NCBI RefSeq assembly: GCF_001742165.1
Contig: NZ_CP016443.1
Span: 1,054,001 to 1,118,000, forward strand
Origin: Burkholderia stabilis
GTDB taxonomy: Bacteria > Pseudomonadota > Gammaproteobacteria > Burkholderiales > Burkholderiaceae
Direction of reading: 5' to 3'
Length of the DNA stretch: 64,000 nt
The notes under the pieces were generated by a model, which searched no databases, had not been told where the DNA came from, and saw nothing but the letters and a program-made list of their open reading frames with translations. The position numbers and the translations under genes were made by a program. Each line of letters opens with the position of its first letter. Position 1 is the first letter of the stretch. Below are positions 32,369 through 64,000 of this stretch, piece by piece.

Positions 32369-32836
32369 TCACGGCGCGCGTACCGCCGATGCCGCCGCGT
32401 CCGGATTCGGCGCGAGCCGCAGCCGCACGCGCAACGGCTGCAGCATGTCCGGCGGCGGCGGCTCGGCCAGCGGGCCGGCCGTGAGCAGTTGCCGAAGCGC
32501 CGCGTCCGCATCGGGATCGCCGAGCGACGCGAATTCGACGCGCGTGACGGCACCGGTCGCGCCGATCCACGCGCGCACGACGATCGCGGGCGGCGGCGCG
32601 TCGGCGCTCGCATTCAGCACGCGCGTCTCGAGGTAGCGGTGCAGCCGGTCGGCCGCGTCGCCGTCCGCTTCGAGCCACGTCTGGAACTGCTGCCCGGCGA
32701 GCTGGCCATAGCGGATCCATGTCGGCGGCACGTCGGCCTTTTGCGCCACGGCCGGCGCGGCACCCGCGGCCAGCCCGCATGCGGCGACGATCGCGCGCAG
32801 CCATCCGGATGCGCCCCACTTCTGCATTCGCTTCAT
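32369..32836 (-). CDS. Exported TonB C-terminal-like protein (155 aa)
   Basis: Last gene of the large secretion operon. Signal peptide at about residues 1-35 (LRAIVAACGLAAGAAPAVAQ). The rest resembles a TonB C-terminal fold: the IVVRAWIGATGAVTRVEFAS block, a DADAALRQLL helix and a final LRVRLRLAPN strand. It lacks the membrane anchor plus proline spacer of a real TonB, so it is a free periplasmic TonB-like domain. The ATG at 32836 follows GGGAGG. Together with the TonB at 39876 and the sensor at 51937 it makes three TonB-like C-terminal domains in this locus. Confidence 0.68.
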   Translation of the reverse strand: MKRMQKWGASGWLRAIVAACGLAAGAAPAVAQKADVPPTWIRYGQLAGQQFQTWLEADGDAADRLHRYLETRVLNASADAPPPAIVVRAWIGATGAVTRVEFASLGDPDADAALRQLLTAGPLAEPPPPDMLQPLRVRLRLAPNPDAAASAVRAP

Positions 32837-32894
32837 CCCGCCTCCCGTTTCGGCATGTCGGCACCCGGCCGTCGTGCCGCATTGCGTCGCCTGC

Positions 32895-34319
32895 TCAACC
32901 GATCCCGATCGGCACATACAGCCGCGCGCCGCCGCGCTGGACGAGCAGCGCGACATTGCCGTGCGCGGCGTCGATCTCCGCCATCAGCGCGCCGATGCTC
33001 GCAACCGGCGTGCCGTTCACCGACAGCACGACATCGCCGGGCTGCAAGCCCGCGCGCGCGGCCAGGCCGCTCGCCTGCTCGACGACGAGCGCCTGGCCGA
33101 CGCCGAGCCGCCGGCGCTCCGGCTCCGTTGCCGCCCGCAGCGCCAGCCCGAACCGCGCGGGGCCTTGCTCGCCGCCGGCCGACGCGGCGCCGCTGTCGAA
33201 TGCGCCGACCGTCGCGATCACGTGCATCGCCCGGCCCGCGCGCCACACGAGCAGGTCGGCCTGCCGCCCGGCACGCATGCCCGCGACCGCGCCGAGCAGG
33301 TCCGCCGATTCGTCGACCGGCTTGCCGTCGACCGCGAGCACGACGTCGCCCGCCTGCACGCCCGCGCGCGCGGCCGGGCCGTCCGGCTCGACCATCGTGA
33401 TCAGCGCGCCATCCGGGCTCGCGAGGCCGAACGAACGCGCGAGCGCCTGGCTCACCTCCTGCACGGCCACTCCGAGCCGGCCGCGCGTGACCTTGCCGGT
33501 CCGCAGCAACTGGTCCTTCACGTCGAGCGCGATGTCGATCGGAATCGCGAACGCGAGCCCCTGATAACCGCCCGTCTTCGAGAAAATCATCGAGTTGATC
33601 GCGATCACGCGGCCGCCGAGGTCGAACAGCGGGCCGCCCGAGTTGCCGGGGTTGATCGGCACGTCGGTCTGGATGAACGGAATCGCGCGCTCGCCGGGCA
33701 ACGAGCGCGATTTCGCGCTGACGATGCCCTGCGTGACCGTGTTCGCGAACCCGTACGGCGAGCCGATCGCCATCACCCAGTCGCCGACCTCGGTGCGCGC
33801 GGGGTCGCCGGTTTCCACGACCGGCAGGTTGTGCGCGTCGATGCGGATCACCGCGACATCGGATACGGGATCGCTGCCGATCACGCGCCCCTTGAACTGC
33901 CGTTTGTCGGTCAGCTTCACGTCGATGGCGACGGCATCGCCGACCACGTGCCGGTTGGTCAGGATCACGCCGTCGGCGCTGACGATGAAGCCGGAGCCGA
34001 GACTCACTTCCTCCCGGTTGCCGATCACGCGCCGCGCGAGAAACGGCGCGAGCGGATGATCGAGCGCGATGCCGGGCGGCAACTGGATACCCATCTGCGC
34101 GACTTCGCGCGTGACGCTGATGTTGACGACGGCCGGGCCGACGCGCCGGACGAGTGCGGCGAAGTTCGGCAATGCGACGGTCGGCGCGACGGCGCTCGCC
34201 TGCGCGGGCGAATCGGCGGCCTGCGCCGTCGTGCACGCGAACGTGAACGTAGACACGACGAGCCCGCTCGCGATCGCCCGCAGCAGCACCGCCAGTCCTG
34301 TGCGCTTGCCTGCTTTCAT
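32895..34319 (-). CDS. Periplasmic serine protease, HtrA/DegP-DegQ family with two PDZ domains (474 aa)
   Basis: Trypsin-fold periplasmic protease/chaperone. Signal peptide at residues 1-35. The catalytic triad is H124 (TNRHVVG), D154 (SDVAVIRI) and S227 (NPGNSGGP). Two PDZ domains follow (about 270-360 and 385-470); both carry the GD-V-L/VNG pattern. Full length. It is the second-last gene of the secretion operon, 64 bp after a small exported protein. A role in clearing misfolded exported proteins or cleaving an anti-sigma factor is plausible. The ATG at 34319 begins the signal peptide. Confidence 0.93.
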   Translation of the reverse strand: MKAGKRTGLAVLLRAIASGLVVSTFTFACTTAQAADSPAQASAVAPTVALPNFAALVRRVGPAVVNISVTREVAQMGIQLPPGIALDHPLAPFLARRVIGNREEVSLGSGFIVSADGVILTNRHVVGDAVAIDVKLTDKRQFKGRVIGSDPVSDVAVIRIDAHNLPVVETGDPARTEVGDWVMAIGSPYGFANTVTQGIVSAKSRSLPGERAIPFIQTDVPINPGNSGGPLFDLGGRVIAINSMIFSKTGGYQGLAFAIPIDIALDVKDQLLRTGKVTRGRLGVAVQEVSQALARSFGLASPDGALITMVEPDGPAARAGVQAGDVVLAVDGKPVDESADLLGAVAGMRAGRQADLLVWRAGRAMHVIATVGAFDSGAASAGGEQGPARFGLALRAATEPERRRLGVGQALVVEQASGLAARAGLQPGDVVLSVNGTPVASIGALMAEIDAAHGNVALLVQRGGARLYVPIGIG

Positions 34320-34383
34320 GCCACTGTTCCTCGCCGGTTCGCGCCGGCTCATCGAGTCCGCCAGTCGATACCCGCCGCGTGCC

Positions 34384-34761
34384 TCACTTCGGCGGCACCG
34401 CAACCGGCGCATCGGGCCGCTGTGGTGTCACCGACCGGCCCCAGTTCGAGCCGAAGCGGTTCTGCTCGGTCGACAGGTTGAACGTGCCGAGCCGGTTCGA
34501 CGGCTGCTTCGACAGTCGCTCCGAATCCGTCTGCGATGCGCCCGCCTGCGGTTCGGCCGTCGGCTTCAACTGCTGGCTCAGGCAGTCGTACGACAGCGCG
34601 CGCTTGCCGTCGACTTCCGCGTCGACGCACACCGGCTTCGCGGCCGAACCCGGCCGGGCCGGTACGGCCGCACTCGCCGCCGCGCGGCTGCCCTGTGCGT
34701 GTGCGCCGGCCGCCAGCAACAGGCAGACGATCGTCGCGATTCCGTTTCGTCGCATCTTCAC
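34384..34761 (-). CDS. Small exported hypothetical protein (125 aa)
   Basis: Unrecognised. Signal peptide at about residues 1-23 (IATIVCLLLAAGAHAQ). The mature part has two Cys (KPVCVDAEVDG, SYDCLSQQ) and a disordered Pro/Ser/Gln-rich C-terminus. The start is taken as GTG at 34761 because AGGAGG lies 5 bp before it; an ATG two codons later is the alternative. It lies between the 279-aa gene (15-bp gap) and the protease gene in the secretion operon. Confidence 0.65.
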   Translation of the reverse strand: MKMRRNGIATIVCLLLAAGAHAQGSRAAASAAVPARPGSAAKPVCVDAEVDGKRALSYDCLSQQLKPTAEPQAGASQTDSERLSKQPSNRLGTFNLSTEQNRFGSNWGRSVTPQRPDAPVAVPPK

Positions 34762-34776: not shown

Positions 34777-35616
34777 TCATGGCTCCGTTGCACGCGCGGC
34801 CGACAGCGGCGCGCGCGCGAGGAAACGCGCGAACGCCGCGCGATCGGCCGCCTCGACGGCCGGCTCGCTTGCATCGGCTTGCCGCGCCCATGCGTCGCGC
34901 ATGCCTTCGACCGGCTGCCACGCATGCACCTGCGCGCCGGTCGGATACGGCGTGACGAGCGGTTCGCGATAGTCGACGCGAAACAGCGCCGGCGCATCGC
35001 TGCCGGCCGTCCACAGATCGCCGACGTCGCGCACGCTCGCGTCGAACCAGAACCGCACCCAGCGCACCGTGGGCGCGCGCGGGTCGGTGCCCGGTGCGTC
35101 GGCGCCCGGCGCTTCCGGCACGCGCAGGAAGCCGGCCAGCACGAGCAGCACGGCCGCGAGATCGTCGTCGCGCAACATCCGGTACGACCACAGATCCGCG
35201 ACGTCCACGCACGCGATCACCGCGATGAAGCGGCCGATCGTGAGCGCGGGCCACGCGCGCCGCATCAGCGCGTAATGGCGCGGCCAGTGCGCGATGAAGC
35301 GCTCGCGATGATGCGCGGCGACCTGCACGTCGCGCGAGCCGCGAATCGTCAGCTCCTCCGGCTGATACTGGCGCGTCGTCAGCACGCATTGCGCGGAGCA
35401 CCGCATGCTCCGGTGCCGCGCATAACCGCCCGCGCCGGGCAACGGCTCCAGCGCGCCGAAGCAAAGCGGGCAATGCGTCGGCCATTCGCCGGGCCGGCCC
35501 GGCCACGGGTTCGCCTTCGGCATGCGCGGACGGTCGGCGGCGGCGGCCGGGCGACGGCGCGCCGATGTGCGCGCATCGGGGGCCGCGACGCGCGGCGTCG
35601 AACGGACAGTGGCCAT
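34777..35616 (-). CDS. Hypothetical protein with N-terminal Cys motif (279 aa)
   Basis: No family recognised. No signal peptide; the basic, disordered first 40 residues are followed by CPLCFGALEPL and a later MRCSAQCVLT, a possible zinc-binding set. The middle contains many aromatic residues (HWPRHYALMRRAWP). It lies 8 bp from the PpiC gene in the secretion operon, so it is co-transcribed with envelope genes although it appears cytosolic. ATG at 35616. Confidence 0.6.
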   Translation of the reverse strand: MATVRSTPRVAAPDARTSARRRPAAAADRPRMPKANPWPGRPGEWPTHCPLCFGALEPLPGAGGYARHRSMRCSAQCVLTTRQYQPEELTIRGSRDVQVAAHHRERFIAHWPRHYALMRRAWPALTIGRFIAVIACVDVADLWSYRMLRDDDLAAVLLVLAGFLRVPEAPGADAPGTDPRAPTVRWVRFWFDASVRDVGDLWTAGSDAPALFRVDYREPLVTPYPTGAQVHAWQPVEGMRDAWARQADASEPAVEAADRAAFARFLARAPLSAARATEP

Positions 35617-35624: not shown

Positions 35625-36515
35625 CTACCGGGCAGACGCGAGCGCTTTCTTCAGCGCGTCTTCATTGATCGGCGCGTTTGCGGCCAGCTTCGCGAGATAC
35701 GCCTGCGCATTCTGCTGTGTGCGCTGCGCGCGCAGCATCGTGCGCAGTTGCTCCTTCACGTCGGCCAGCGGCCGCGGCGCGGCCGCGCGCACGTCGATCA
35801 GCTTCACGACATGAAAGCCGGCCGGCGTCCGGATCGGTGCGGAAACCTGGCCCGGCTTCAGCGCGTCGGCGGCTTGCCGCACCGCCGGCACCATCAGCGT
35901 GTCGGGCACGAAACCGAGATCGCCGCCATTCGCGGCGCTCGCCTTGTCCTGCGAATTCGCCTTCGCGAGCGCCGCGAAATCGCCGCTGCGCGCACGGTTC
36001 GCGAGATCGGTGGCCTGCTTGCGCGCCTTGTCGAGCGTGGCGGCATCCGCGTTCTGCGGCACCGCGATGTAGATCTGCGCGACGTGCAGCGCACGTGGCG
36101 CGGTGAATGCGGCGCGGTTCGCGTCATACGCGGACTGAAGCTCCGCGTCCGACGGATAGTCGGCCGGCGGTGCGTTGACCGACGTCAGGTAGCTGCGCAC
36201 GACGATATCGCGCTGCGCCTGCTCGACGGCCGCCTGCACCTGGGCCTGCTTGTCCCAGCCTTTCGATTTCGCCTCGGCCAGCACGGCCTTCTGCGCAAGC
36301 GTCGAACGCACGATCTGGTCCAGCGTCGCGGGATCGGCCGCGAGGCGTTCACGGCCTTCGGGGCTCACCGCCTTCAACAGCCCCGCGATGTCGGCCTGCG
36401 TGACCGACGCCTGCGCGGCGTTCGCGATCACGTCGTCCTGTGCGTGCGCAACGAACGGCACGCCCAGCACGAGACTGCCCGCCACCATTGCCAGCATCTT
36501 CATCTTCGTCATCAT
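35625..36515 (-). CDS. Periplasmic peptidyl-prolyl isomerase, PpiC/SurA type (296 aa)
   Basis: Parvulin-type PPIase. Signal peptide at residues 1-23 (MLAMVAGSLVLGVPFVAHAQ). A SurA_N-like helical part (25-135) is followed by a rotamase domain (about 145-245) with the ALHVAQIYIAVP, GGDLGFVPDTL and TPAGFHVVKLID signature blocks. Full length. It most likely helps fold outer-membrane or secreted proteins of this locus. An equivalent PpiC gene belongs to the P. aeruginosa pdt/exbB2 region as I recall it. Two adjacent ATGs (36515, 36512) are possible. Confidence 0.9.
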   Translation of the reverse strand: MMTKMKMLAMVAGSLVLGVPFVAHAQDDVIANAAQASVTQADIAGLLKAVSPEGRERLAADPATLDQIVRSTLAQKAVLAEAKSKGWDKQAQVQAAVEQAQRDIVVRSYLTSVNAPPADYPSDAELQSAYDANRAAFTAPRALHVAQIYIAVPQNADAATLDKARKQATDLANRARSGDFAALAKANSQDKASAANGGDLGFVPDTLMVPAVRQAADALKPGQVSAPIRTPAGFHVVKLIDVRAAAPRPLADVKEQLRTMLRAQRTQQNAQAYLAKLAANAPINEDALKKALASAR

Positions 36516-36630
36516 CGTTCGACTGCCCTCTGGATTGCTCTTGAAATGCGGACACCGTGCTCGCGCGCCCGCCGGCGTCACGTGCGGGACAGGCTGCCTC
36601 GCAGCGCTGTGCCGATCCTGCGCACGACGA

Positions 36631-37218
36631 TCACGACTGCGTGGCAGCCTCGAGCCCGGCCGGAGCCACAGCCGTGGCCGATGCGGATGCCGGATCGGCC
36701 GCCGCCGCGCGCGCCGCGTCCTGCTCGGCCATCGCGGGACGGTTGCGCAGGTGCAGCAGGAATTCCTGGATCAGGCGATCCCACAGCTCGATCGTCGAAC
36801 GCAGGTGGCGCTCGGACACGCCGCCCGCGACGACCACGTCCATCTCCAGCGCGAGAAACGGCCCGTGGCTCGCGAGACGCGCGAAGCGCTTGGTCCGGTT
36901 CCAGTCCGCGACGAGTTCGGTCGGCAATTCGCCCTGCACCTGCAGCACGCACGACAGCGTGTAGTCGATGTACGGCAGCGCGGCGGCGGCGACCTCGGCC
37001 GCCTGCGGCGCGAGCGCGGCAGCCGGGTTGCCGAAGCGCACCGCGAAGCCGATGCCCTGGCTCGCGCTCATCAGTTGCACCGCGCCGTTCTGCTCGGCCG
37101 CCGTCACGCGATAGCCCGCGCGGCGCAGCACGTCGGCCAGGCGGTCGGCGCTGATCGCTTCGATCGGCGCATCGTGTGCCGTGCGTTCGTCGCCGGCGTT
37201 CGGTTGCTTGTCTTGCAT
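36631..37218 (-). CDS. YbjN-domain protein (195 aa)
   Basis: Soluble protein with a YbjN-like domain (residues ~20-150): ISADRLADVLRRAGYRV opening, then FAVRFGN, the YIDYTLSCVLQVQGEL strand and NRTKRFARL. YbjN proteins are compared with type III chaperones and motility/stress regulators. The C-terminus is Ala-rich and disordered. No signal peptide. The ATG at 37218 matches the domain start. It lies 58 bp from the coiled-coil gene and is co-directional with the secretion operon. Confidence 0.78.
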   Translation of the reverse strand: MQDKQPNAGDERTAHDAPIEAISADRLADVLRRAGYRVTAAEQNGAVQLMSASQGIGFAVRFGNPAAALAPQAAEVAAAALPYIDYTLSCVLQVQGELPTELVADWNRTKRFARLASHGPFLALEMDVVVAGGVSERHLRSTIELWDRLIQEFLLHLRNRPAMAEQDAARAAAADPASASATAVAPAGLEAATQS

Positions 37219-37276
37219 GTCGGTATTCCCCGTGTTCAATGAAACGGTCGGTTCGCGCCCGGTTCCGGGCGCAGGT

Positions 37277-37954
37277 TCACGGCGCATTCGCGGCCGACGC
37301 CGGCGCAGCGGCGGCGGCGGCCGCGCGCGCGGCCGGGTCGTACTTGCCCGCGTACAGCGCATCGCCGTAGCGCTGCGCGAGATCGTCGTACTTCACCCGT
37401 GCGGACTGCGCGAAGGGCTGCCGCGACGCGAACAGCGTGCCGATCCCGACATGCTCGTACGCGTCGAGAATCTCGTGCCCCACGCGATACAGCTCGGCAT
37501 TGTGGGCCTGGCAGGTTTTCAGTTGCGTGTCACGCGCGGCGATGTCCTTCTGCTGTTGCGTGTGCTGCGCATCGCGGGCACGCGACACGGCGAGCAGATC
37601 CTCGTAGGACGACTTGTATTTCGCGAGCGACTTCGCGTCCTGCTCGCGGCCCGCCCGCTCCTGTGCAAGCGCGCGCTTCGCGGCCGCCTCCGCGCCCGAA
37701 TCGCCGCGCGCCGCCGCGAGTTGCCCCTGCAATGCCTTCAGTTGCGCGAGCGCGTCGTCGCGCTGCTTCTCGGCCGCCGCCTTGTCGCTCTGCAACTGGG
37801 CCTGGCCGTCCTGCAACTGGCGCAGCTCCTGCACGGTCGAGCGCAACTGGCTGCGCAGCTTGTCCTCGATGCTTTGCGCGTGTGCGCCGCCCGCCGCCAG
37901 CAGCAGCGCACCGGCCACGCCGGCCGAGAGCATCGTGCGATGGATCGTGTTCAT
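37277..37954 (-). CDS. Periplasmic coiled-coil protein (225 aa)
   Basis: Unrecognised exported protein. Signal peptide at residues 1-27 (AGVAGALLLAAGGAHAQ). A long coiled coil follows (about 30-140) with heptad-like Leu/Gln repeats (LRQLQDGQAQLQSDKAA, LAQLKALQGQL), then a globular tail with one Cys (TQLKTCQAHN) and an Ala-rich end. The shape suggests a periplasmic spacer or scaffold beside the porin and ExbBD-TonB genes. It lies 12 bp from the porin gene. ATG at 37954. Confidence 0.72.
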   Translation of the reverse strand: MNTIHRTMLSAGVAGALLLAAGGAHAQSIEDKLRSQLRSTVQELRQLQDGQAQLQSDKAAAEKQRDDALAQLKALQGQLAAARGDSGAEAAAKRALAQERAGREQDAKSLAKYKSSYEDLLAVSRARDAQHTQQQKDIAARDTQLKTCQAHNAELYRVGHEILDAYEHVGIGTLFASRQPFAQSARVKYDDLAQRYGDALYAGKYDPAARAAAAAAAPASAANAP

Positions 37955-37966: not shown

Positions 37967-39781
37967 TCAGAAACGAGCGTTCAGCTCGATCTGCAGCACG
38001 TCGATCGATACCGGCGGCCCGTACACTTCCTTCGAGCTCAGGTAGCGGGCCGATACCCACGTGTCGCGCGCGACCGCATACGCAGCGCCGAGCACGTAGC
38101 CGCGCGCGTTGGTGCCGCCGAGATGGAAGTCGGGATCGTTGAACGCGTCGAGCACGGCGTCCGGCTGCAGGTACTTGTACGCGATCGAGAAGTTCCACTG
38201 GCCCTTCTCGCGCGGCTCCGGCTCGCCGATCGTCGCCTTCGCGAGGAAGCCGTTCGGGCCGCTGCGGTAATCGGCGCGCGTCGCGTTCACCGACGTCGAG
38301 TCATAGTTGTTGACCGGCAGCGACGCCGCCGCGAACGCCTTGTTGTCGTTGTACGCGAGGTTGCGCACGTACTCGCCGTCCAGGCGCAGCTTGAAGCGGT
38401 CGGCCACCACCGTGTCCCACTGCGCTTTCAGGTCGAGCAGCCGATAGTTGTACGCGAGCCCGAAGAGCTGCGGCTGCGGCGTCATCCCGGGCGCGAGGTT
38501 CGGGTTCTGCACGATGTTGCGCAGCGCGACCAACGTGTTGCCGCCCTGCATGAACGCGGGCGCCTCGTTGTCGGTGCTGCAGTTGGTCGCGCCGAGATAC
38601 AGCGCGCACGGCGACGACAGCGTGCCGCGCATGTTCTGGAAGTCGTAGTACGCAACCGCGCCGCGCAGGCGGTTCTTCGCATCGATCTTCCAGTCCGCGC
38701 CGAACTGCGCGCCGAACATCCACTTCGTGTCGCTGCCGGCCTTGTCGGTGCTGTTCGACGGGAAGTTCTCGCTCGTGTACTGGATCGGGAACACGCCGAG
38801 CGTGCCGAACAGCGTGACGTCCGGATTCCACGGCAGCGCATGGCGCAGGTTCGCGGCGAGCCCGTCCATCATCAGGTCGTCCGAGAACACCAGGTCCGAC
38901 TTGAAGAACGGATTGTCGAAGCGGCCGGCCGTCAGGTTCAGCCAGGACGTCGGCCGATACGCGAAGAACGCCTTGTTCAGCCAGATGTTCTTCTTCGCGA
39001 AGCCGCCGCCGGCGGTCGAGGTGGTCGACACCGGCCCGTTGTCGTTGCCGCTCGCGAGCTGGATGCCGGCGATCATGTCGTCGGACAGCGTCGCCGTCAC
39101 GCCGAGCCGCGCGCGGTAGCGCAGCAGGTTGTTGCGGTTCTGCGTGGTGTTCTGCGTCGGCAGTTGCGTCGTATTGGTGTTCTGGTTGATGTCGAACCCG
39201 CCGCCCTGGTTGATCGCCGCGAAGTTCGTCACGTTGTTCGCGTTGCGGCTGCCGTAGAAGTGGTATTCGTCGCGCACGCGCAAGTCGCCGTCGAGCTTGA
39301 TGCGCGACACCCAGTCCGGGAACGTGTTCGGCTGCGCCCAGTTCTCGGCCTTCGCCTGCGCGATCACCTCCTGCTTCACCTGGTCGCGGATCTGGTCGCG
39401 CACGAGCTGCGGCACGTACGGCACCGCGACGTCGCCCGGCTGCGTCGGCGGATTCACCACGCCCGCGCCGGCCACGACAGGCGCGCCCGACGCGCGCGCG
39501 GCCCTCGCCTGCACGGCTTCCGTGCGCGCCTCGCTGATCAGCTCGTTCGCATTCTGCTGCGTGAGCACGCCGCGCTTGACGAGCAGGTTGATCAGGTTGA
39601 TCACCACGCTCTCGGTCGGCGCGGCTTTCCCCGTTGCCGCCTGCGCCTCGAGCGATTGCCCGTGCGCGGCGGACGCGCACGTCAACCCGAGCGTCAGCAC
39701 CGCCGCGCCGACGCGCGACAGGCGCGCGGGCAGCGCGCCGTTGCGGGGTACCCCACCCCGTCCGTTCATCTTCCGAATCAT
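37967..39781 (-). CDS. Putative large outer-membrane porin, Porin_5-like (604 aa)
   Basis: Outer-membrane beta-barrel. Signal peptide near residues 10-42 (VLTLGLTCASAAHGQ). The N-terminal periplasmic part (45-150) carries VVINLINLLVKRGVLTQQNA, an SLH/oligomerisation-like helix pair found in putative porins. The barrel part follows, with many aromatic girdle strands and the C-terminal Phe (IELNARF). The ATG at 39781 has GGAG 8 bp before it. It is encoded right after TonB, so it may be the TonB-energised or surface-anchored partner of the locus. Confidence 0.82.
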   Translation of the reverse strand: MIRKMNGRGGVPRNGALPARLSRVGAAVLTLGLTCASAAHGQSLEAQAATGKAAPTESVVINLINLLVKRGVLTQQNANELISEARTEAVQARAARASGAPVVAGAGVVNPPTQPGDVAVPYVPQLVRDQIRDQVKQEVIAQAKAENWAQPNTFPDWVSRIKLDGDLRVRDEYHFYGSRNANNVTNFAAINQGGGFDINQNTNTTQLPTQNTTQNRNNLLRYRARLGVTATLSDDMIAGIQLASGNDNGPVSTTSTAGGGFAKKNIWLNKAFFAYRPTSWLNLTAGRFDNPFFKSDLVFSDDLMMDGLAANLRHALPWNPDVTLFGTLGVFPIQYTSENFPSNSTDKAGSDTKWMFGAQFGADWKIDAKNRLRGAVAYYDFQNMRGTLSSPCALYLGATNCSTDNEAPAFMQGGNTLVALRNIVQNPNLAPGMTPQPQLFGLAYNYRLLDLKAQWDTVVADRFKLRLDGEYVRNLAYNDNKAFAAASLPVNNYDSTSVNATRADYRSGPNGFLAKATIGEPEPREKGQWNFSIAYKYLQPDAVLDAFNDPDFHLGGTNARGYVLGAAYAVARDTWVSARYLSSKEVYGPPVSIDVLQIELNARF

Positions 39782-39875
39782 CGAAGCACTCCGAACAATT
39801 TTCGTTTCTTTTCCGGCGGCATCCGCGTAACGGCGCCGCCCCATGATTCATTCGCCATGTCGCGCGCGCGCATCG

Positions 39876-40574
39876 TCATGCCGGCTTGCGTCCCTGGAGC
39901 TTCACGAGCACCGGATACGCGGTCGCGGGCGGCGGCGCTTCGTCGACCCTGCCGAGCGCTTCGACTGCCGCGATCACGGCCGCGTCGATCTTCGCGTCGC
40001 CGGTCGACTGCGCGACCGTGACCTTCGTGATCCGCCCGGCCGTATCCATCCACAGGTTCAGGCTGCCCGTGAAACGCGCGCCGCCGGCTTCCTGCACGCC
40101 CTTGTCCTGCTCGATCGCGCGCTGCAGCACGTACACCATGTATTGCGCGTAGCTCGCATTGCCGAACTTGCCGCCCCCGCCGCTGCCGATCATCCCCGAG
40201 CCGTCGCCCGCGCCGATGTTGAAGCTGTCGGTGCCGGCCTGCGCGGGCGCATTCATCGTCATCTGCTTCGGCTGGTTGTCCGACGGCTTCGGCGCCTCGG
40301 ACGGCTTCGGCGCGATCGTCGGCCGGTCGACCGGCGTCTTGACCTCCTCCTTCACCTTCTCGGGCGGCGGCTTCTGTTTCGGTGGCGGCGGGGGCGGCGG
40401 CAACGGGATCACCGTCGTCACCTGCGGCGCGCTCACGCGCTTCACGCCGGCCGTATCGCCCGCGAAACGCCAGATCAGCGCGGCCAGCCCCGCGAGCACG
40501 AGCGCGATCGCAACCGGCTTCACGTAGCGGCCGGGGCCTTTCTGCGGCGGGCCGCCGTTGTAGGTCATTTCCAT
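39876..40574 (-). CDS. TonB family protein (232 aa)
   Basis: Energy transducer of the locus. One N-terminal membrane helix (residues ~19-38), a proline-rich periplasmic spacer (LPPPPPPPKQKPPPEKVKEE), and a C-terminal TonB domain (~140-232) with GSLNLWMDTAGRITKVTVAQ and VEALGRVDEAPPP. It follows exbB and exbD directly (8 bp from exbD), forming a complete TonB-ExbB-ExbD unit dedicated to this operon. ATG at 40574. Confidence 0.9.
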   Translation of the reverse strand: MEMTYNGGPPQKGPGRYVKPVAIALVLAGLAALIWRFAGDTAGVKRVSAPQVTTVIPLPPPPPPPKQKPPPEKVKEEVKTPVDRPTIAPKPSEAPKPSDNQPKQMTMNAPAQAGTDSFNIGAGDGSGMIGSGGGGKFGNASYAQYMVYVLQRAIEQDKGVQEAGGARFTGSLNLWMDTAGRITKVTVAQSTGDAKIDAAVIAAVEALGRVDEAPPPATAYPVLVKLQGRKPA

Positions 40575-42829: not shown

Positions 42830-42896
42830 GATCCACTCCCCGAATGTGCGGGCGCCGCGCTCGTCGCATCGCCCCGGCACGATCAAAAAAAATCCG

Positions 42897-45913: not shown

Positions 45914-45947
45914 GCGCCACCGCGCCGCCATCGCAGGAGCCAAGCGC

Positions 45948-51367: not shown

Positions 51368-51378
51368 CGTCCGGATGC

Positions 51379-52683: not shown

Positions 52684-52883
52684 GAATCCCTGGACGGAAG
52701 TGGAGTTGCACGCTGCCGGCGAAACGCGCACCCCCGTGAGCGGTTTCGTGGCAAGCGAACGTCAGATTGTGAGCGGGCACTATGACAGTCAGGTGAAGTA
52801 TGCCGATCCGCGACACGATCGCGCCGCACCGCTTTCGTGCGTCACGGGTTCGGGGCTTGCGCCCGCGCGACGCCGCGCGCCGC
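52684..52883 (-). promoter_or_regulatory. vreAIR promoter region with a Pho-box-like half-site
   Basis: 200-bp gap upstream of the sensor gene. On the minus strand CTGTCATA (52781-52788) is a perfect match to the first half of the Pho box (CTGTCATA), 98 bp before the start codon; the expected second half 11 bp on is poor. PhoB control of vreI is described in P. aeruginosa, so a weak Pho box here is meaningful but unproven. Confidence 0.45.
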
Positions 52884-55607: not shown

Positions 55608-56262
55608 GTGAGTGCCCTCGGGTCACGCGTGTCACGCGCTGGACTTTTTCGACGACGTCGCGCAACGCGCCGGACGGAGTCGCCGGGGAAGACTACGGAG
55701 CGAACCGGCGCAGATTTGTGACGGATGTTGGGCTACCTTTTTTTGTTTCTCTTTTTGGTTCTCATTACTTCCGGTCGTTGCTCTTATATCGTAAAAACGA
55801 TTTCATCGCGATTAGTGAAATCAATTATTCAAACATTAACTAGACGGCAATCATGGACTGATGGTTGCTTAATAAAAGCATTCGATCGAATCACCGGATA
55901 TTCAATCCCGGAAATCCACTCCGTCTGTGGAAGAAATGTTCCGTAGCATTCGCCACGAAACTGACTTGCAGTTGCGATAGCACTTCTGTGTGCAGCAAAA
56001 AGCCCGCAACACGAGGCCTCGCCGGAGTGAACCATCGCCCTCCCAACATCTGGGAATCATCGATCGCCCGATTCCATCTCGAATTATGGCCACGCCAATC
56101 CGGATAAAGCATTGCCAATACCGCCACAAATGTTCCGTACCTTTCGTTATTAAAAATTCACACGCGTCATCCGGATTTCCCCCTACATTTACCCGGCGGT
56201 CCACAAGTACTCCAACCGCAGTAGCAGGGGTTCCCGTTTATCTTCGTCCAAGGAAATTTCTC
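55608..56262. other. AT-rich intergenic region upstream of gspF and the first phosphate-binding gene
   Basis: 655 bp, no supported gene. The stretch 55735-55900 is strikingly AT-rich for this genome. The phrase AAATGTTCCGTA occurs twice (near 55935 and 56125), about 190 bp apart, a candidate regulatory repeat. It must hold the promoters for gspF (left) and the first PstS/DING-like gene (right). Confidence 0.55.
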
Positions 56263-57600
56263 ATGAAATCCAGCAAGCGCAAGATCTGTCAGGTCCTGGC
56301 TCTCGTCGTTTCGGGCATGGGCGCTTCGGTCGCAATGGCTGCAGGCCCGGTGATTCAAGGTGGCGGCTCGTCGCTCGTCGCACCGACGATCGGCGCCAAC
56401 GCCACTACCTCCGTTCCGGCTTTCGGTGAAATCGGTCTGTTCGGCACGAACAACGCCACGTTCACGTACTTCTCGGTCGGTTCGGGCGCCGGCCAGAACG
56501 CGTTCCTGAACAACCAGCCGACGTTCTTCGGCACGGGCGTCTCGGGCACGGTTCACTTCGCCAACAGCGATGCTGCGTTGACGACGGCACAAGTCACGTC
56601 GTACAACGCCAGCACGGTCGGTTCTAACAGCGGCCCGCTGATCCAGATCCCGTACATCGTGACGGCGATTACGGTGCCGGTCGTCAACGCTCCGGCCGTG
56701 ACGAGCGCCATCACGCCGCAAACGACGCCGGGTCAGGCGCACAGCATCGCGCTGAACGACAACGACCTGTGCGGCATCTTCTCGGGCAAGATCACGGACT
56801 GGAACAACGTGATCAATCCGGAAACGGGTTTGGTCTACACGACGACCAGCAAGCCCATCAAGGTCGTCTATCGCTCGGACAGCAGCGGCACGACTGAACT
56901 GCTGACCCGCCACCTGGCTGCAGTCTGTACGACCGCCAACACGGCGTCGGGCGTCAAGTTCATCGATTCGCTGACGTTCGCGAACACGTCGGCGTTCCCG
57001 ACGGGCGTGCCGACGAACTTCATCCCTGCCTCGGGCAGCGGTGGCGTTCGCGGTTCGCTCACGACGCTGTTGTCGGCCGGCACGGCCGCGGTCGCATACC
57101 TGAGCCCGGACTACACGAACACGTTCCTCGCATCGCAAAGCACGGTCGTAACGTCGTCGGGCGCGCTGCAGCTTCCGATCGCCAGCCTGTACAACTCGTC
57201 GAACAGCACGTACTACGCGCCGACGTACGCGAACGCGACGACGGCACTGGGCACGATCTCGGCACCGTCGAACCCTGCCGATCCGAATGCGTGGGTGCCG
57301 GTTTCCGGCCCGGCATACACTGCGCTGGCCAACCCGGCTGCCGGCTATCCGGTTTCGGGCACGAGCCAGATCATCCTGAGCCAGTGCTATGCAAACTCGG
57401 CGGTGACTTCGAATGTTCAGTCCTTCCTGAACAACCACTACACGGCCGCCAACTACGCGTCGATCGTCCACGGCAACGGCTTCGATACCGTGCCGTCGAA
57501 CTTCCGGACCGCGATCTCCGCGAACTTCCTGAGCAACACGAGCGGGAACAACCTGGACATCGGCGACGCATCGGTCTGCACTTTCGTCACCGGCCGGTAA
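56263..57600 (+). CDS. PstS/DING-like secreted phosphate-binding protein, copy 1 (LapA/LapB-like, 445 aa)
   Basis: Exported substrate-binding protein of the PstS superfamily. Signal peptide ends at VAMAAG|P (about residue 26); the mature part begins with the phosphate loop VIQGGGSSLVAP. Ligand-type residues are kept: HFANSDAALT (Asp equivalent to PstS D56) and YRSDSSGTTELL (Arg/Asp pair and SGTT). It is longer than ABC-transporter PstS and has no pst genes beside it. In P. aeruginosa, the DING-type LapA/LapB are secreted by Hxc and lie beside pdtA, as here. ATG 56263, ribosome site AAGGAAA. Confidence 0.85.
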   Translation: MKSSKRKICQVLALVVSGMGASVAMAAGPVIQGGGSSLVAPTIGANATTSVPAFGEIGLFGTNNATFTYFSVGSGAGQNAFLNNQPTFFGTGVSGTVHFANSDAALTTAQVTSYNASTVGSNSGPLIQIPYIVTAITVPVVNAPAVTSAITPQTTPGQAHSIALNDNDLCGIFSGKITDWNNVINPETGLVYTTTSKPIKVVYRSDSSGTTELLTRHLAAVCTTANTASGVKFIDSLTFANTSAFPTGVPTNFIPASGSGGVRGSLTTLLSAGTAAVAYLSPDYTNTFLASQSTVVTSSGALQLPIASLYNSSNSTYYAPTYANATTALGTISAPSNPADPNAWVPVSGPAYTALANPAAGYPVSGTSQIILSQCYANSAVTSNVQSFLNNHYTAANYASIVHGNGFDTVPSNFRTAISANFLSNTSGNNLDIGDASVCTFVTGR

Positions 57601-57670: not shown

Positions 57671-57763
57671 CGTTTCAGGCCGCTCGATACCAACGGAGCG
57701 AGGTTGGCTCATATCGAACGCGCTTCTCGTCCGCTTTCCCGATACCACCACACTGAAATCCTT

Positions 57764-59098
57764 ATGAATCTCACCAAACGCGCAATCTGCCGCATTCTCG
57801 CCGGGATCATTCCGATCGCCGGATCGTCGCTCGCCGCTGCCGCCGGACCGATCGTTCAAGGCGGAGGATCGTCGCTTGTCGCGCCGCTGTTCGGCAGCGC
57901 CAGCAATCCAGCAAGCGAGATAGGATTATTCGGCACGAATGGAGAAGGCTTCACGTATTACCCGTACGCTGTCAATGGAGCAGGCGTGTACGCGTTCCTG
58001 AACAACCAACCGACATTCTTCGGCCAGGGCGTTACAGGTGCGGTTCACTTTGCTACCAGCGAAGCTGGGCTGACAACCGCGCAAGTCACGTCGTACAACG
58101 CCAGCACGATCGGTACCAACAGCGGCCCGCTGATCCAGATCCCGTATATCGTGACGGCCATCACAGTGCCGATCGTCAACGGTCCTACCGTGACGAGTTC
58201 GATCACGCCTCAAACGACACCAAGTCAGACGCATAGCATCGCACTGAACGATGATGATCTGTGCGGCATCTTCTCGGGGAAGCTTACAAACTGGAATCAG
58301 ATCCTTAACCCTGAAGACTATTACAGTTACCCATTTAATCAAGCAATCACCGTCGTCTATCAATCGAACTCGAGTGGCACCACCGAACTTTTGACCCGTC
58401 ATCTGGCTGCAGTCTGCACGCGCGCTAACACGAAGGCCGGAACAACGTTCGTCGATTCGCCGATATTCGCTAACACGACAGCATTTCCGACCGGGACGCC
58501 ATCGAACTTCATTGCGGCATCGGGCGATATGGGCGCTCGTCGCTCGCTTGCGTCACTATGGTCCGCCGGCATTGGTGCGGTCGCCTACTTGAGTCCGGCT
58601 TACTCGAATACCTACCTAGCACCGTCGAGCGCGGTCGTGACGTCATCGGGCGCGCTGCAGCTTCCGATCGCCAGCCTGTACAACTCGATGGCCATGACGT
58701 ACTACGCGCCGACGTACGCGAACGCAACGAGGGCATTGGGCACGATCTCGGCACCGTCGACATTTTCCGCTGCAATTGATCCGACGCAGTGGGCGCCAGT
58801 CTCCGGCCTGGCATACGCTGCGCTGGCCAACCCGGCTTCCGGCTATCCGGTTTCTGGCATGAGCCAGATCATCCTGAGCCAGTGCTACGCCGACCCGACT
58901 GTGATGTCAAATGTTCAAAGCTTCCTGAACAACCACTACACGAACACTAGCTACGCGTCAGTCGTACACGGAAATGGCTTCGACACCGTACCGTCAAGCT
59001 TCAAATCCGCGATCCTCGCCAACTTCCTGAGCAACACGAGCGGAAACAACCTGGACATCGGCGAAGCAGGGACCTGCTCACTCTATACCGGCCGTTGA
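57764..59098 (+). CDS. PstS/DING-like secreted protein, copy 2, with altered ligand residues (444 aa)
   Basis: Tandem paralogue of the preceding gene. Signal peptide ends near LAAAAG|P (about 26); loop IVQGGGSSLVAP is kept. The ligand positions differ: HFATSEAGLT (Asp to Glu) and YQSNSSGTTELL (Arg to Gln, Asp to Asn). Codon use is looser and AT-richer than copy 1 except for blocks nearly identical in DNA (about 58640-58700 and 58850-58890), a sign of gene conversion. Ribosome site weak. It may bind another oxyanion or none. ATG at 57764 begins the signal peptide. Confidence 0.83.
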   Translation: MNLTKRAICRILAGIIPIAGSSLAAAAGPIVQGGGSSLVAPLFGSASNPASEIGLFGTNGEGFTYYPYAVNGAGVYAFLNNQPTFFGQGVTGAVHFATSEAGLTTAQVTSYNASTIGTNSGPLIQIPYIVTAITVPIVNGPTVTSSITPQTTPSQTHSIALNDDDLCGIFSGKLTNWNQILNPEDYYSYPFNQAITVVYQSNSSGTTELLTRHLAAVCTRANTKAGTTFVDSPIFANTTAFPTGTPSNFIAASGDMGARRSLASLWSAGIGAVAYLSPAYSNTYLAPSSAVVTSSGALQLPIASLYNSMAMTYYAPTYANATRALGTISAPSTFSAAIDPTQWAPVSGLAYAALANPASGYPVSGMSQIILSQCYADPTVMSNVQSFLNNHYTNTSYASVVHGNGFDTVPSSFKSAILANFLSNTSGNNLDIGEAGTCSLYTGR

Positions 59099-59540: not shown

Positions 59541-62500
59541 TCAGAACCTGTTCAGCTTCCCGAGTTCCTCCTTGCTCAACAACGTCCGCTGAGTCGGCCC
59601 GGCTGCGCCAAACCCCAGCAATGACACCGCATTGGACGAATCGTAGCCAACCTGCTCCGACTTGCGCCGTTTCGACCCGCCATCCGGACCGTTGTCCCCG
59701 AAGCCTTCAACCTGCACGCTGATCGTCCAGCGACGCGGGGCAACGCCTGAAGCATTGTTTCTTGCGACGTCTTGTGCGACCTGGCTCGCGGCAGACGCGG
59801 CCGAACTCGCCGCCGTCAGCGCTCCCGTGTTCACAGCCTGCACGAGCGGAATGCCGGTCGCCTTCCCGGTGACCTGGATGTTGTCGGCATTCACCACACG
59901 CAACGCGGCAACGTTCAGGTTGCCAGCACGAATGCCCGCGTCGCCCGCATCGACGGTCCCGCGCGGCGCAATCAGGTTGACCGTGCCTTTCGGCGCACCC
60001 GGGATGCTCTGCAGCGTCGCGATACCCGCGCCCGTCACCTGACCGCGCGAATCGACCGTGCAGTAGTGGTTCGCATCGCATACATACTGCGGCGCCGGCG
60101 TATCGGCCGACGTCTTCGCGCCCTTGCCCGCGTTGATGTCACCGTTCGAGCTCCAGATCGTCATGTCGCCGCCCTGCTCGGTGAAGATCCGGCTCTGCGC
60201 GAGCAGTACGCTCTGGTCGGTAAAGATATCGACGTTGCCTTTCTCGAGCGTCAGGATCCCCATCGTGCCGGGGCCGGCCACCACCTTGCCGTTCGCGTCC
60301 ACGATCTGCGGCGGCGCCGTCGTACTGCCAACGAGTGCCTGCCCGCCCGGGCCGAGGATCGTCACATCGCCACCTTGCTGCGTCTGGATCGTCGTGCTTC
60401 GGATGTCGAGGTTGCCCGTGCTCGCCGACTTGTTCGCCCCGTTGGAGCCGCCGCCCAGATTGTTCGCCGTGTAGCCGAACGATGCGGGAAACAGCGTGTT
60501 GATTGCCTGATAACCTCGCGAATACTGGCCGTTGTACCGGCTCGCCGGATCATTGAAGTCCGCACCGACTTGCGCGAGGACGCCGAACAGTACCTTTTCC
60601 GCAAAAAGCTGCTGTACGTAAGACGGCAACGCCTTGAATTGCTTCCACGCATCGTCGGCTGTCAACCGTCCGACCCTGGCAAGCGCGGCGTCCTTGTCCG
60701 CCTGCAGGCCCGTGTCAACACCAAGCGCCCCCGCGTCGTACTGCTCCATGAACGCGACCAATGCGGGCGTCGCGCTCGGCACGCCGGCAACCGAGCTGCC
60801 CGGCGCGATATAGGTCGAGATGAACCCCGGCAAATCGACGCCGGGACCAACGCCGAACAGCACGTTGACGTTCGCACTCTCGTGAGGCAGGTTCGGGTTG
60901 TTCGCGTTGCCGACGGCGTCGATACCAGTGAAAAGCGGGACCCCAGTGGGGATAGCCTGTTGGTTGTACAACTCTGCCCGACTCGTCAACGGGCCGATGT
61001 TACGTCCTGCCTGCACATCGAACCATCCCGGCCCGCCGATCACCAACACCGGGACAGCGCCGCCACCTGCGTACGGGATCGATGTGTCGTAGATATCTCG
61101 GCCGGCCACGACTCGTGTCACATCGGAGCTACGCAGGTTCTGCCCCCAGAACGCGAGGTTGACGATGTCCTGCCCGGCCTGTACCAACGCCGGTTTGTCG
61201 ATCGATAGCGTAACGAGGCTCCGGTAGAAGCCGTCACTGGAATTGGGATTGTCCACTGTGCCATTAACGATGCTGCCATTCAGGCTGTAGATTCGCGCGG
61301 GTTGCATGTCGTCGCCATGCAGTGCATTAAGCGCATGTCCGACAAGTGTCGTATCGGTCAATGCCGGAATCACAGCGAGTGGATTCGTCGGCGAAGGCAT
61401 CTGCGACGGATCGGCGTCGGACATACCGAACGTATTGGGCAAGCTGGTTCCAACCAGTAGTGACGATATGCTGGAAAGATTCACGGATCGATCCGCAACC
61501 AGATTCAACTGGCCGACGGCCGACGGATAAAGCACACCACCCGATTGGACATTGATCCCTCCGTCGAATGCCGTCAGATTGACGCTCGCCGGCAGTACGC
61601 CATTTGCCCCGGTCAACAAGCCACCGAGCGCACCGATTCTAACGTCGCCGGTTGTGGAGAGCACATTCACCGCGGAAGTCGGTGAGTATCCCTGGCTGTC
61701 GGCGTACTGTCCGTAGCTGAACAGATTGACAGCCTTGGTGGGCTGTCCGCCGGGCGGCGAGAATCCGCTCGCATAGGACGGGTTCAACACTGCACCGATG
61801 TCTGCGCCTTGACGCGCCGTGACATCGAATATGCCGTCCTGCGTCGCAAGCACCGTCGATACGGCAATTGGAGCCACCCCAGTCCGGGGAGACGAGACGG
61901 TGATGTCCGGCCCGATGCTTCCGCCGGCCGATATCGTCCCTGCCCCCTTCGCGACGAAGTAGTCGCCGCTCAGAATATCGCCGCCCGCTCGCACCGTCAG
62001 ATTTCCACCGCCGACCGTGACAGGTTTGCCGTTGCCATCCAGGTACCACGTGGTCGGCAACGACACGGCCAGGTCCGAAATATTGCCGCCGGCACTGATC
62101 GCGACGTTGCCGCCGACACTCATCACGCCTTGGTCGAACGCACCGAAATCGATTGATGTCCGGGTCAGCGGAGCAACGATAAAATTGCCATCCGAGGTTT
62201 TCCCTGCCGTGATCTGCATCCACTGCCACCAGTACTGGCTAATGCTGTTGCCCGCTCCCCCCGTCACCGCGCCTGTTGCATCAATCACGTTCTGGAGGCC
62301 GTTTATATCGCCCTGCACACGAATAGAAATGTCTCCCGCCGAGTCGGGATTCACGGCCGGCGTGACCAGAATATCCGCCTTGCCTACCCCCCCATTCATC
62401 ACCGCCGAAGCAAGCCCCAACGTCGGTGAACCCTGCGCCGGCGCGCCCGCCGTATACACGACACCCGGCGCGACCGTATCCGCCAGCGTGAAATCGTTGG

Positions 62501-64000
62501 CCGCGGCGATGTCGATCGACCCGGTTCCCGTTCGGATCGTCGTCGGCTGAAGCAACGTCAGTCCGTTCGAATCGACATAGGCCGTGTGCTGATTCAACGT
62601 CACGTTGCCCGCAGATACGCTGGCGGAATCGAGCGCCGCATTCGGCTGTACAGCGAGCGGATTGGCACTTGCCAGATCTGCGCCACCAACAATGCGATAT
62701 GACGTGCTTTGACCACCTAGCAATGCTGCATAGCTGATCGGCAACGGGTTGTCTTTCGTTGCAACGTTGGCCGCCGTATTGCCTGGCAGTGCACCGATGT
62801 TGACGCCCGTGTTAGGAATCGACAGCGGAGAGGCAGGCGCATAGAAGAAGCTATACGCGTTCCTTGGATCAACGAACGCAAAATTGGGCGATTTCGTGAA
62901 AGTCAATCGCGACAGATAGTTCCCGTATAAAGCGATGTACTGTCCGTAATCGCCAGGCTTTGACGACATGACCGGCGGCGTCGGCGTGCCAAATTTCTCA
63001 AAGAAAACCACGCCGTTTCGCACCACTCCGGCAACGGTATTACTTGCATACCCAAACAACCAGGAACCCGGACCAAAGTACGCGTTCGCATAATCCTGGT
63101 ATGACGCATAGTTCGACAGCACCGGTGCGGGAATACGCAACGGGACATAAGGCATGATGTGGAATGCATAGTTCCCGCTTGCCCAGTATCCGTAATACGA
63201 ACCCCACGAATTGCCGTACTCCAGATAGTCGGAGTAGTACAGAGGCGCCTGATTCTGGAGTGGTGCAGTCAATGCAACGTTCGGGTCGTAGAGCGGATTC
63301 GTCGAATCTTTACTGATCGACGTCAGTGACTGAGTTGATCCATCGGTAAATTGCACGCTGATCGACGCCGGATCATCCAGCGACATCAGGCTGTTGTACA
63401 ACGCCAGCGCTGCCGCATACGTCCCGGTAGCAGAACCCGTCCCCGCCGCCCCCAGAATCGTCGCGACCTGGCTCTGGAAGAACCCGTCGGTAATACTCGC
63501 TTTCGCGTCGAAATTGTTCGTCGCCCGGAACGTCAGCATCGGCGCGATCGTTCGGTTATAGCGATACGCAGGATCGATCGTCCCGCTATTGTTCGGCAGC
63601 CCCGCGCCCAGATTCCAGTTCGACAAGATCGAGATATTGCCGCTGTTGATCGCCGTGCTCGGGTTGTCGAATTCGATCCCTGGCGCCACGCGGAAATTCG
63701 CGATATTCCCCGTCGACCCTTGCAGCGTCGGCCCGTTGGCACCGAGTCCGCTCTGAATGAATCCCATCAGCGTGCCGGGCGTCATCGACAGCGTGCCGTC
63801 GCTCGCCTTGACGATCTGTCCGCCGTAGAAATTCTGATGATCGGCGTTCGCGGTCGTCGGCACGAAGTACGTGCTGCTCATCCCCGGGAAGCCGATCGAC
63901 GTGACGCCGTTATACAGTGAGGCCTGGTCTGCGTCGCTACCCGTCAATGTCACCTGCGCACCGGTCGCATTGTTCGTCAGCGTGCCGCCGCCGTCGCCGT
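59541..64000 (-). CDS. pdtA: Giant filamentous haemagglutinin-family exoprotein (TpsA), C-terminal part; 5' end outside window
   Basis: The frame is open to the window edge, so only the last ~1,485 residues are seen and the secretion domain is missing. The chain is a right-handed beta-helix type sequence with many Asn-Gly-Asn and Thr/Val repeats (VAGRDIYDT, ISAGGNISDL, LTVRAGGDILSG), and a DUF3739-like C-terminal region found in filamentous haemagglutinin outer-membrane proteins. It ends KLNRF. It is the likely substrate of the FhaC-type transporter at 42897. The family member in P. aeruginosa, PdtA, is over 4,000 residues and lies next to lapA/lapB, as here. A surface or adhesin role is inferred. 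Confidence 0.87.
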   Translation of the reverse strand, partial: GDGGGTLTNNATGAQVTLTGSDADQASLYNGVTSIGFPGMSSTYFVPTTANADHQNFYGGQIVKASDGTLSMTPGTLMGFIQSGLGANGPTLQGSTGNIANFRVAPGIEFDNPSTAINSGNISILSNWNLGAGLPNNSGTIDPAYRYNRTIAPMLTFRATNNFDAKASITDGFFQSQVATILGAAGTGSATGTYAAALALYNSLMSLDDPASISVQFTDGSTQSLTSISKDSTNPLYDPNVALTAPLQNQAPLYYSDYLEYGNSWGSYYGYWASGNYAFHIMPYVPLRIPAPVLSNYASYQDYANAYFGPGSWLFGYASNTVAGVVRNGVVFFEKFGTPTPPVMSSKPGDYGQYIALYGNYLSRLTFTKSPNFAFVDPRNAYSFFYAPASPLSIPNTGVNIGALPGNTAANVATKDNPLPISYAALLGGQSTSYRIVGGADLASANPLAVQPNAALDSASVSAGNVTLNQHTAYVDSNGLTLLQPTTIRTGTGSIDIAAANDFTLADTVAPGVVYTAGAPAQGSPTLGLASAVMNGGVGKADILVTPAVNPDSAGDISIRVQGDINGLQNVIDATGAVTGGAGNSISQYWWQWMQITAGKTSDGNFIVAPLTRTSIDFGAFDQGVMSVGGNVAISAGGNISDLAVSLPTTWYLDGNGKPVTVGGGNLTVRAGGDILSGDYFVAKGAGTISAGGSIGPDITVSSPRTGVAPIAVSTVLATQDGIFDVTARQGADIGAVLNPSYASGFSPPGGQPTKAVNLFSYGQYADSQGYSPTSAVNVLSTTGDVRIGALGGLLTGANGVLPASVNLTAFDGGINVQSGGVLYPSAVGQLNLVADRSVNLSSISSLLVGTSLPNTFGMSDADPSQMPSPTNPLAVIPALTDTTLVGHALNALHGDDMQPARIYSLNGSIVNGTVDNPNSSDGFYRSLVTLSIDKPALVQAGQDIVNLAFWGQNLRSSDVTRVVAGRDIYDTSIPYAGGGAVPVLVIGGPGWFDVQAGRNIGPLTSRAELYNQQAIPTGVPLFTGIDAVGNANNPNLPHESANVNVLFGVGPGVDLPGFISTYIAPGSSVAGVPSATPALVAFMEQYDAGALGVDTGLQADKDAALARVGRLTADDAWKQFKALPSYVQQLFAEKVLFGVLAQVGADFNDPASRYNGQYSRGYQAINTLFPASFGYTANNLGGGSNGANKSASTGNLDIRSTTIQTQQGGDVTILGPGGQALVGSTTAPPQIVDANGKVVAGPGTMGILTLEKGNVDIFTDQSVLLAQSRIFTEQGGDMTIWSSNGDINAGKGAKTSADTPAPQYVCDANHYCTVDSRGQVTGAGIATLQSIPGAPKGTVNLIAPRGTVDAGDAGIRAGNLNVAALRVVNADNIQVTGKATGIPLVQAVNTGALTAASSAASAASQVAQDVARNNASGVAPRRWTISVQVEGFGDNGPDGGSKRRKSEQVGYDSSNAVSLLGFGAAGPTQRTLLSKEELGKLNRF

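Follow-up and report, generated by a model that had tools for sequence, protein, structure and literature searches.

The 64,000-nucleotide stretch of the Burkholderia stabilis genome analyzed here (the window; C2:1054001-1118000, genome of 8.5 Mb in 3 contigs) harbors, from position 32369 onwards, what is by gene content and sequence matches the Burkholderia form of the PUMA3/Vre-type island known from Pseudomonas aeruginosa. A PUMA3 homologue has already been reported in B. vietnamiensis (Llamas et al. 2009, PMC2729926), so the island as such is not new. The new part is its core, which is wider than the Vre regulatory system: two-partner secretion (TPS) systems whose giant exoprotein TpsA carries the domain DUF3739 are paired in a near-obligate manner with the motor genes exbB2, exbD2 and tonB4. 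We propose that the conserved core would be an export machine equipped with a dedicated motor, serving the giant DUF3739-ending TpsA and regulated by Vre in some lineages. This reading, which is built on sequence comparison, is given a probability of about 0.55.

DUF3739 (PF12545) was detected in 19 of 397 Pseudomonadota genomes and DUF2341 (PF10102), a domain of ExbB2, in 18 of 397, all of which are among those 19 (Fisher p 3e-30, without correction for kinship). In the 19th genome (G284) the ExbB2 channel is cut, starting at base 7 of its contig, and ExbD and TonB4 are encoded in the same locus. Of the 21 DUF2341 matches, 18 have a DUF3739 within 23 kb; another is a second copy at a distance of 549 kb, and the remaining two sit on other contigs. 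All 20 fetched loci contain ExbD and TonB4, and 17 contain Porin_5; the misses are L036, whose Porin_5 and TpsB are on another contig (L053), and the second copies L037 and L041. As the locus models were built from these same 20 loci, a better check is provided by the named loci, which are the best 80 of at least 569 ExbB2 relatives, 63 of them with full flanks (at least 21 kb). They belong to Pseudomonas, Achromobacter, Burkholderia, Janthinobacterium, Cupriavidus, Stenotrophomonas, Dyella, Alloalcanivorax, Bradyrhizobium, others and an Anaeromyxobacter metagenome-assembled genome (MAG), and three (L166, L167 and L177) apparently repeat contigs already used for the models. ExbD and TonB4 were found in all 63 full-flank loci, TpsB and Porin_5 in 62 each, the coiled-coil protein in 59, YbjN in 53, PpiC in 47, a piece of TpsA in 36, VreR in 28, VreA in 27, VreI in 24 and LapA in one. 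The sole locus without TpsB and Porin_5 is L177, an apparent repeat of the contig of L036. At ordinary TpsB loci, ExbB2, ExbD2, TonB4 and Porin_5 were found in none of 25 cases within ~10 kb. These controls comprise 20 ShlB matches from genomes without DUF3739 and all five other ShlB matches of the B. stabilis genome; ShlB is present in 64 of 150 genomes scanned. The negative is meaningful, because the ExbD model detected all ten ExbD loci fetched from the B. stabilis genome (13 ExbD matches; one of the ten loci is the island and two overlap) with at least 59 bits.

The association might reflect common descent of one conserved operon, the region then being an ordinary PUMA3 copy without a general lesson. 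This view is compatible with the other readings, and it is in line with Llamas et al. (2009, PMC2729926), who noted PUMA3 together with homologues of TPS, ExbBD and PA0696 in several genomes including B. vietnamiensis; P. fluorescens Pf0-1 and Pf-5 are also named there as PUMA3 carriers. As an account of the data it is judged unlikely. Common descent explains the spread of the set, but not its retention over the 16 genera of the sample that the DUF3739-DUF2341 set spans and over named loci ranging from those of Bradyrhizobium to those of Stenotrophomonas and of the Anaeromyxobacter MAG. Moreover, two genomes (G232 and G375) carry three DUF3739 matches per one DUF2341.

The three motor genes are located on the minus strand. 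ExbB2 (41024-42886) combines DUF2341, LamG_3 and a MotA/TolQ/ExbB channel according to Pfam, ExbD2 (40583-40990, PF02472) has a conserved membrane aspartate, and TonB4 (39876-40574) consists of an N-terminal membrane helix, a proline-rich linker and a TonB-like C-terminal domain (PF13103, TonB_2; alignment). The MotA_ExbB and ExbD domains, the ExbD aspartate and the proline-rich TonB linker are shared with the Ton and Tol-Pal motors (ExbB/ExbD/TonB, TolQ/TolR). In contrast to these, the island ExbB carries DUF2341-LamG, of which the lectin-like LamG domain is probably periplasmic, and harbors an alanine in place of the conserved channel glutamate. In a hidden Markov model (HMM) alignment of 100 rows, among which at least three contigs occur twice, the ExbD aspartate is present in 100 of 100 rows and the ExbB threonine pair in 100 of 100 and 99 of 99 readable rows. 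At the position equivalent to Glu176 of Escherichia coli ExbB, 98 of 99 readable rows show alanine and one serine, with a gap in the remaining row, whereas the other ExbB-type rows of the B. stabilis genome contain glutamate in nine of nine cases (eight distinct genes). According to this alignment, the ExbB2 motor forms a separate ExbB class. In P. aeruginosa, exbB2-exbD2-tonB4 has been described as still uncharacterized (PMC7035377), and what DUF2341 does on channel proteins of this kind was called unknown in 2025 (PMC12505986). Among the open-access literature matches, the titles and abstracts of the part covered do not describe an ExbB/ExbD motor for a TPS, and an open-access text search found no mention of DUF3739.

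The proposed client and its exporter form a TPS pair. TpsA contains the TPS domain PF05860, and TpsB (42897-44582, minus strand) has POTRA_2 (PF08479) and the ShlB barrel (PF03865); the only matches of TpsB in a similarity search were CdiB and BamA. The C-terminal part of TpsA (59541-64000, minus strand, continuing past the window) includes DUF3739 at 59847-60173 (minus strand, 139.7 bits) and a conserved tail motif, ISVQVEGFG, at 59697-59723 (minus strand), which is a candidate target of TonB4 and sits in a low-confidence, probably flexible part of the predicted model. A fold search with the TpsA C-terminus gave no significant match, the best E being 0.72 (pectate lyases, TPS hemolysin fragments). 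The pair resembles type Vb systems such as FhaB/FhaC in the TPS domain, the POTRA_2/ShlB transporter and a giant exoprotein with a beta-helix-like stretch, but differs from them in the dedicated ExbB-ExbD-TonB, Porin_5, a short TpsB N-terminus, DUF3739 and the tail motif. The N-terminal linker before POTRA spans 21 residues in the island TpsB, and its median is 18 in the module class (n=11) versus 55.5 in controls (n=10). Here tpsA is read in three overlapping frames (L009 1-8938 plus window 59541-64000), compared to one frame of 4301 residues in G011, and intact tpsA frames are present in relatives. Since the chromosome-1 gspF of the same genome is likewise found in two frames (L011 10520-11736), an assembly error is as possible as a mutation.

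The core machine for the DUF3739-type TpsA would consist of TpsB, ExbB2, ExbD2, TonB4, Porin_5 and the coiled-coil protein. In this machine ExbB2-ExbD2 would turn proton flow into motion of TonB4, which would act at the outer-membrane step, most likely by gripping a beta-strand-like motif on the flexible TpsA tail. The tail would be the last part left in the periplasm, and the grip might drive, hold or release the exoprotein. A plug helix of the usual N-terminal kind would hardly fit into the short N-terminus of this TpsB class, so that gating of TpsB may be a further role of TonB4. In the periplasm, the still unfolded exoprotein would be attended to by PpiC and HtrA, and VreA might sense the same partner as TonB4 and report to VreR, freeing the sigma factor VreI.

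Several points weigh against this proposal. Association alone cannot separate export from import, and without the channel glutamate the proton path of ExbB2 may differ or be weak. The strict tail pattern occurs in 15 of 18 tails versus 0.018 expected in shuffles, but the motif was defined on the same sequences as were counted, some of them close kin; its likeness to a TonB box is presumed. Full-length VreA (~175 or more of 197 positions) was found in 12 of 19 module genomes, leaving seven without it. In P. aeruginosa, neither VreI activity in vitro nor virulence required vreA (PMC7035377), and VreI-induced lethality in zebrafish was not reduced when tpsA, tpsB, the tonB homologue or PA0696 was disrupted singly by insertion (PMC2729926). 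Furthermore, TpsA was translocated into liposomes without external energy, and the review that describes this states that no gradient powers type V translocation (PMC5422565). A farther-reaching version of the proposal is put forward tentatively: DUF3739-type TPS might represent a proton-powered class of type V secretion, in which an ExbB motor of a distinct class pulls or releases the exoprotein via TonB4 and the tail motif, and in which VreA taps the same contact and reports the export status to the sigma factor.

A somewhat unlikely alternative is import in the manner of HxuABC of Haemophilus influenzae, which also has a TPS pair working with TonB energy. Secreted TpsA would catch a nutrient at the cell surface, and Porin_5 with ExbB2-ExbD2-TonB4 would take it in under phosphate starvation, the motor thus serving the porin and not export. 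Unlike HxuABC, however, the island has its motor genes inside the locus and a predicted plug-less porin as partner. Porin_5 (37967-39844, minus strand), the counterpart of PA0696, is predicted as a porin of 16 strands with N-terminal helices, in which no TonB-receptor plug was seen; residues 1-76 have a predicted local distance difference test (pLDDT) score below 50. No TonB-receptor domain is listed by Pfam, and no TonB-box-like strand was seen at the mature N-terminus. In the fold search the attachment porin OmpM1 came first, and the scores of OmpF-type porins were nearly as high as that of OprP. TonB-dependent receptors are absent from the 50 fold matches listed, although a list of this kind cannot exclude them, and a sequence search of the PDB gave no match at E up to 1. 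These features weigh against the import reading, without deciding between import and export.

The regulatory genes of the island are encoded on the minus strand as VreR, an anti-sigma factor of the FecR type (50372-51382, PF04773), VreI, an extracytoplasmic function (ECF) sigma factor (51379-51930, PF08281/PF04542), and VreA, which consists of STN and a TonB-like C-terminal domain (51937-52731, PF07660, PF13103). In a profile comparison, this C-terminal domain matched that of TonB4 with 99.3% (E 3e-20, 89 columns), versus 0.1% for an unrelated control, and the VreA model also detects TonB4 in 19 of 19 module genomes. As the two domains are related, VreA and TonB4 may share a target. A third protein of this kind, small and secreted (32369-32956, minus strand; 36% identity to PA7 over 104 residues), fits the TonB-C protein of an earlier first-pass annotation. 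Its C-terminal domain matched TonB4 with 99.1% (E 4e-19) in a profile set that includes one TonB4 row (L033), and its PA7 relative follows ppiC. Further small TonB-C-like proteins occur beside VreA and TonB4, with up to two per locus (L029, L152, L157).

It appears distinctly unlikely that the association is one of co-regulation only, with motor genes that neighbor the TPS as members of the Vre/Pho regulon but are not physically coupled to it. The P. aeruginosa genes are co-expressed under VreI and PhoB, and phosphate control of the island is established in that species (PMC7035377, PMC4971064). However, the set is intact in the seven genomes without full-length VreA and in named loci in whose 10-kb flanks no VreR was found, and the motor is one separate ExbB class. 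Pho boxes were sought as matches with up to three mismatches to the pho-box consensus, which makes for a weak test. In the window none was found near the island promoters, and one match lies outside the island versus 2.19 expected. In L009, outside the window, two matches were found versus 0.61 expected, one of which (15989-16006, minus strand) lies ~95 bases before a tetratricopeptide repeat (TPR) gene of the island (13672-15894) on the strand of that gene.

The field has yet to explain how TPS moves giant proteins over a membrane that has no gradient (PMC5422565). The pairing joins this energy question with two other loose ends, namely the role of DUF2341 and the uncharacterized exbB2-exbD2-tonB4 genes. 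If the export reading is true, one class of type V secretion thought to be energy-free would be energized. The pairing would also offer a candidate route of signaling through VreA, whose role is so far unexplained.

The assignment of the region to PUMA3 is based on a VreA-type sensor without barrel, an ECF sigma factor and a FecR-type anti-sigma factor occurring together, and on TpsA/TpsB, ExbB2-ExbD2 and a PA0696 homologue in the same island, as recognized by Pfam and by matches in P. aeruginosa PA7. Every part named in the first-pass annotation was recovered as an open frame with the domain stated there (gene calls, Pfam and NCBIfam scans), including the STN plus TonB-like sensor, the ECF sigma and FecR proteins, parts of a type II secretion system (T2SS), two DING/PstS-like proteins and the Tps pair. 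By tblastn against three stretches of PA7 (L130, L182 and L183; 46 kb in total), 21 island proteins, six of them T2SS parts, match the PA7 island with 32-69% identity. The values are 36% for VreA, 40% for VreI, 41% for VreR, 46% for the DUF3739 region, 43% for the TPS domain, 47% for TpsB, 52% and 55% for ExbB2, 66% for ExbD2, 37% for TonB4 and 49% for Porin_5. PA7 matches thus exist for the sensor, the sigma and anti-sigma factors, TpsA/TpsB, ExbB/ExbD/TonB, PpiC and both LapA/DING-like proteins, and the gene order differs, both as had been supposed. Porin_5, YbjN (55%), the coiled-coil protein (45%) and the TonB-C protein had been regarded as extra genes; since all four have PA7 counterparts they belong to the known island, and the table of island genes in PMC7035377 likewise includes them. 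In contrast, no match was found in the 46 kb for HtrA, the proteins of 279, 125, 188 and 309 residues, the pair of TPR genes and the window PhdA.

Compared to the P. aeruginosa island (PA0674-PA0701), the two thus share VreA/VreI/VreR, LapA-like proteins, TpsA-DUF3739, TpsB, ExbB2-ExbD2-TonB4, Porin_5, the coiled-coil protein, YbjN, PpiC and the small TonB-C protein. They differ in gene order, in the T2SS, of which F, G, H, I, J and K were seen here among the frames scanned and are nearer to the host's own Gsp, in a PhdA that is a different fusion, and in HtrA, the uncharacterized proteins and the TPR genes with GT9-like ends, which are without PA7 match in the stretches searched. In B. vietnamiensis, according to Llamas et al. 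(2009, PMC2729926), hxc-like genes lie upstream and are broken by tpsA, and tpsB is followed downstream by exbBD, as in the window. The island overruns the window and extends to ~80.7 kb in window coordinates with the start of TpsA, two TPR genes with GT9-like ends, GspJ and GspI. Within the window, the minus strand encodes in order the small TonB-C protein, HtrA, two uncharacterized proteins, PpiC, YbjN, the coiled-coil protein, Porin_5, TonB4, ExbD2, ExbB2 and TpsB. These are followed by the 188-residue gene and GspK (plus), PhdA (minus), the 309-residue gene (plus), VreR-VreI-VreA-GspH-GspG-GspF (minus), two LapA/DING-like genes (plus) and the C-terminal part of TpsA (minus).

The T2SS parts had been labeled Hxc-like, and this identity was rejected because all six are nearer to the Gsp proteins of the host's own chromosome 1 than to PA7 Hxc, as judged by tblastn identity and not by trees. 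GspF, a platform protein (54390-55607, minus strand, T2SSF, TIGR02120), shows 82-89% identity to the chromosome-1 copy and 52% to PA7, and the major pseudopilin GspG (53392-53874, minus strand, T2SSG, TIGR01710) 85% and 69%; both look like late copies. For the GspH-type pseudopilin (52884-53417, minus strand, N_methyl/GspH) the values are 56% and 41%, for GspI 45% and 40%, and for GspJ and GspK 37% and 32% each. GspK, a minor pseudopilin (45807-46943, plus strand; T2SSK; NF037980, 240 bits over residues 62-367), probably has its true start ~60 codons into the frame. A secretin (D) and an ATPase (E) were not seen among the Pfam-scanned frames, which cover part of those present in the window and in C2 as far as 1150000. 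In loci of the Stenotrophomonas type (L024, L025, L026, L168), GspH-, GspI- and GspJ-like pseudopilin genes are located between tpsB and tpsA.

The Phd-domain gene (46978-48810, minus strand) encodes a PhdA of a Burkholderia type, in which a degenerate IS4 transposase (PF01609) precedes a C-terminal Phd domain (PF02604) in a frame of 610 residues; it is therefore no stand-alone small Phd/YefM antitoxin. Neither domain reaches its curated Pfam cut-off (21 bits versus 29.8 for Phd, 22.7 versus 23 for DDE_Tnp_1). The neighboring gene at 48690-49619, a possible position for a toxin partner, has no Pfam match. Named close relatives of the protein are from Burkholderia, and it has no match in the PA7 genome. 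The Pseudomonas protein carries an N-terminal Phd domain (19 bits, below the cut-off) and DUF772, a different transposase domain (L130 7595-8200). The Phd domains of the two types match (93%, E 3e-7), whereas the remainder of the proteins does not, and orthology of PhdA to PA0691 was rejected. In a search of 120 module loci and stretches flanking them, the Pseudomonas type was found in 34, the Burkholderia type in nine (in one as the Phd end only) and both in none. The pattern suggests that a Phd-transposase fusion entered the island on two occasions. In an alignment of 32 of 112 PhdA-related proteins, the DDE residues are intact in four of 19 PhdA relatives versus 13 of 13 free IS4 transposases, and a gap of one residue precedes the Glu column in all 19 relatives.

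The other island genes on the minus strand encode an HtrA-type trypsin-like protease with PDZ (32895-34412, PF13365 Trypsin_2, PF13180), a small secreted protein with a conserved cysteine pair and C-terminal PQRP (34384-34761, no Pfam match), a 279-residue protein (34777-35616, no Pfam match), the PpiC-type periplasmic isomerase (35625-36581, PF00639 Rotamase, PA0699 counterpart, 41% to PA7), YbjN (36631-37362, PF10722, PA0698 counterpart) and the coiled-coil protein (37277-37954, no Pfam family, PA0697 counterpart by position). The PQRP protein is an accessory of the module with relatives in 33 of the 63 full-flank named loci, and the 279-residue protein has relatives in seven. On the plus strand, the 188-residue protein adjoining gspK (45347-45913) and the 309-residue protein (48690-49619), both without Pfam match, share 79% and 87% identity with G011. 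The two LapA/DING-like PBP_like_2 proteins (55990-57600 and 57704-59098, plus strand, PF12849) each show 33% identity to the same place in PA7. The two TPR genes upstream of tpsA (L009 11388-15894) have a GT9-like C-terminus and are possible exoprotein glycosyltransferases. Scanning the window for tRNAs and, with gathering scores as threshold, against Rfam gave no matches. Before the island, a lower-GC patch (57.7%) at 28041-29156 contains an IS605 OrfB/TnpB-like gene (PF01385, PF07282).

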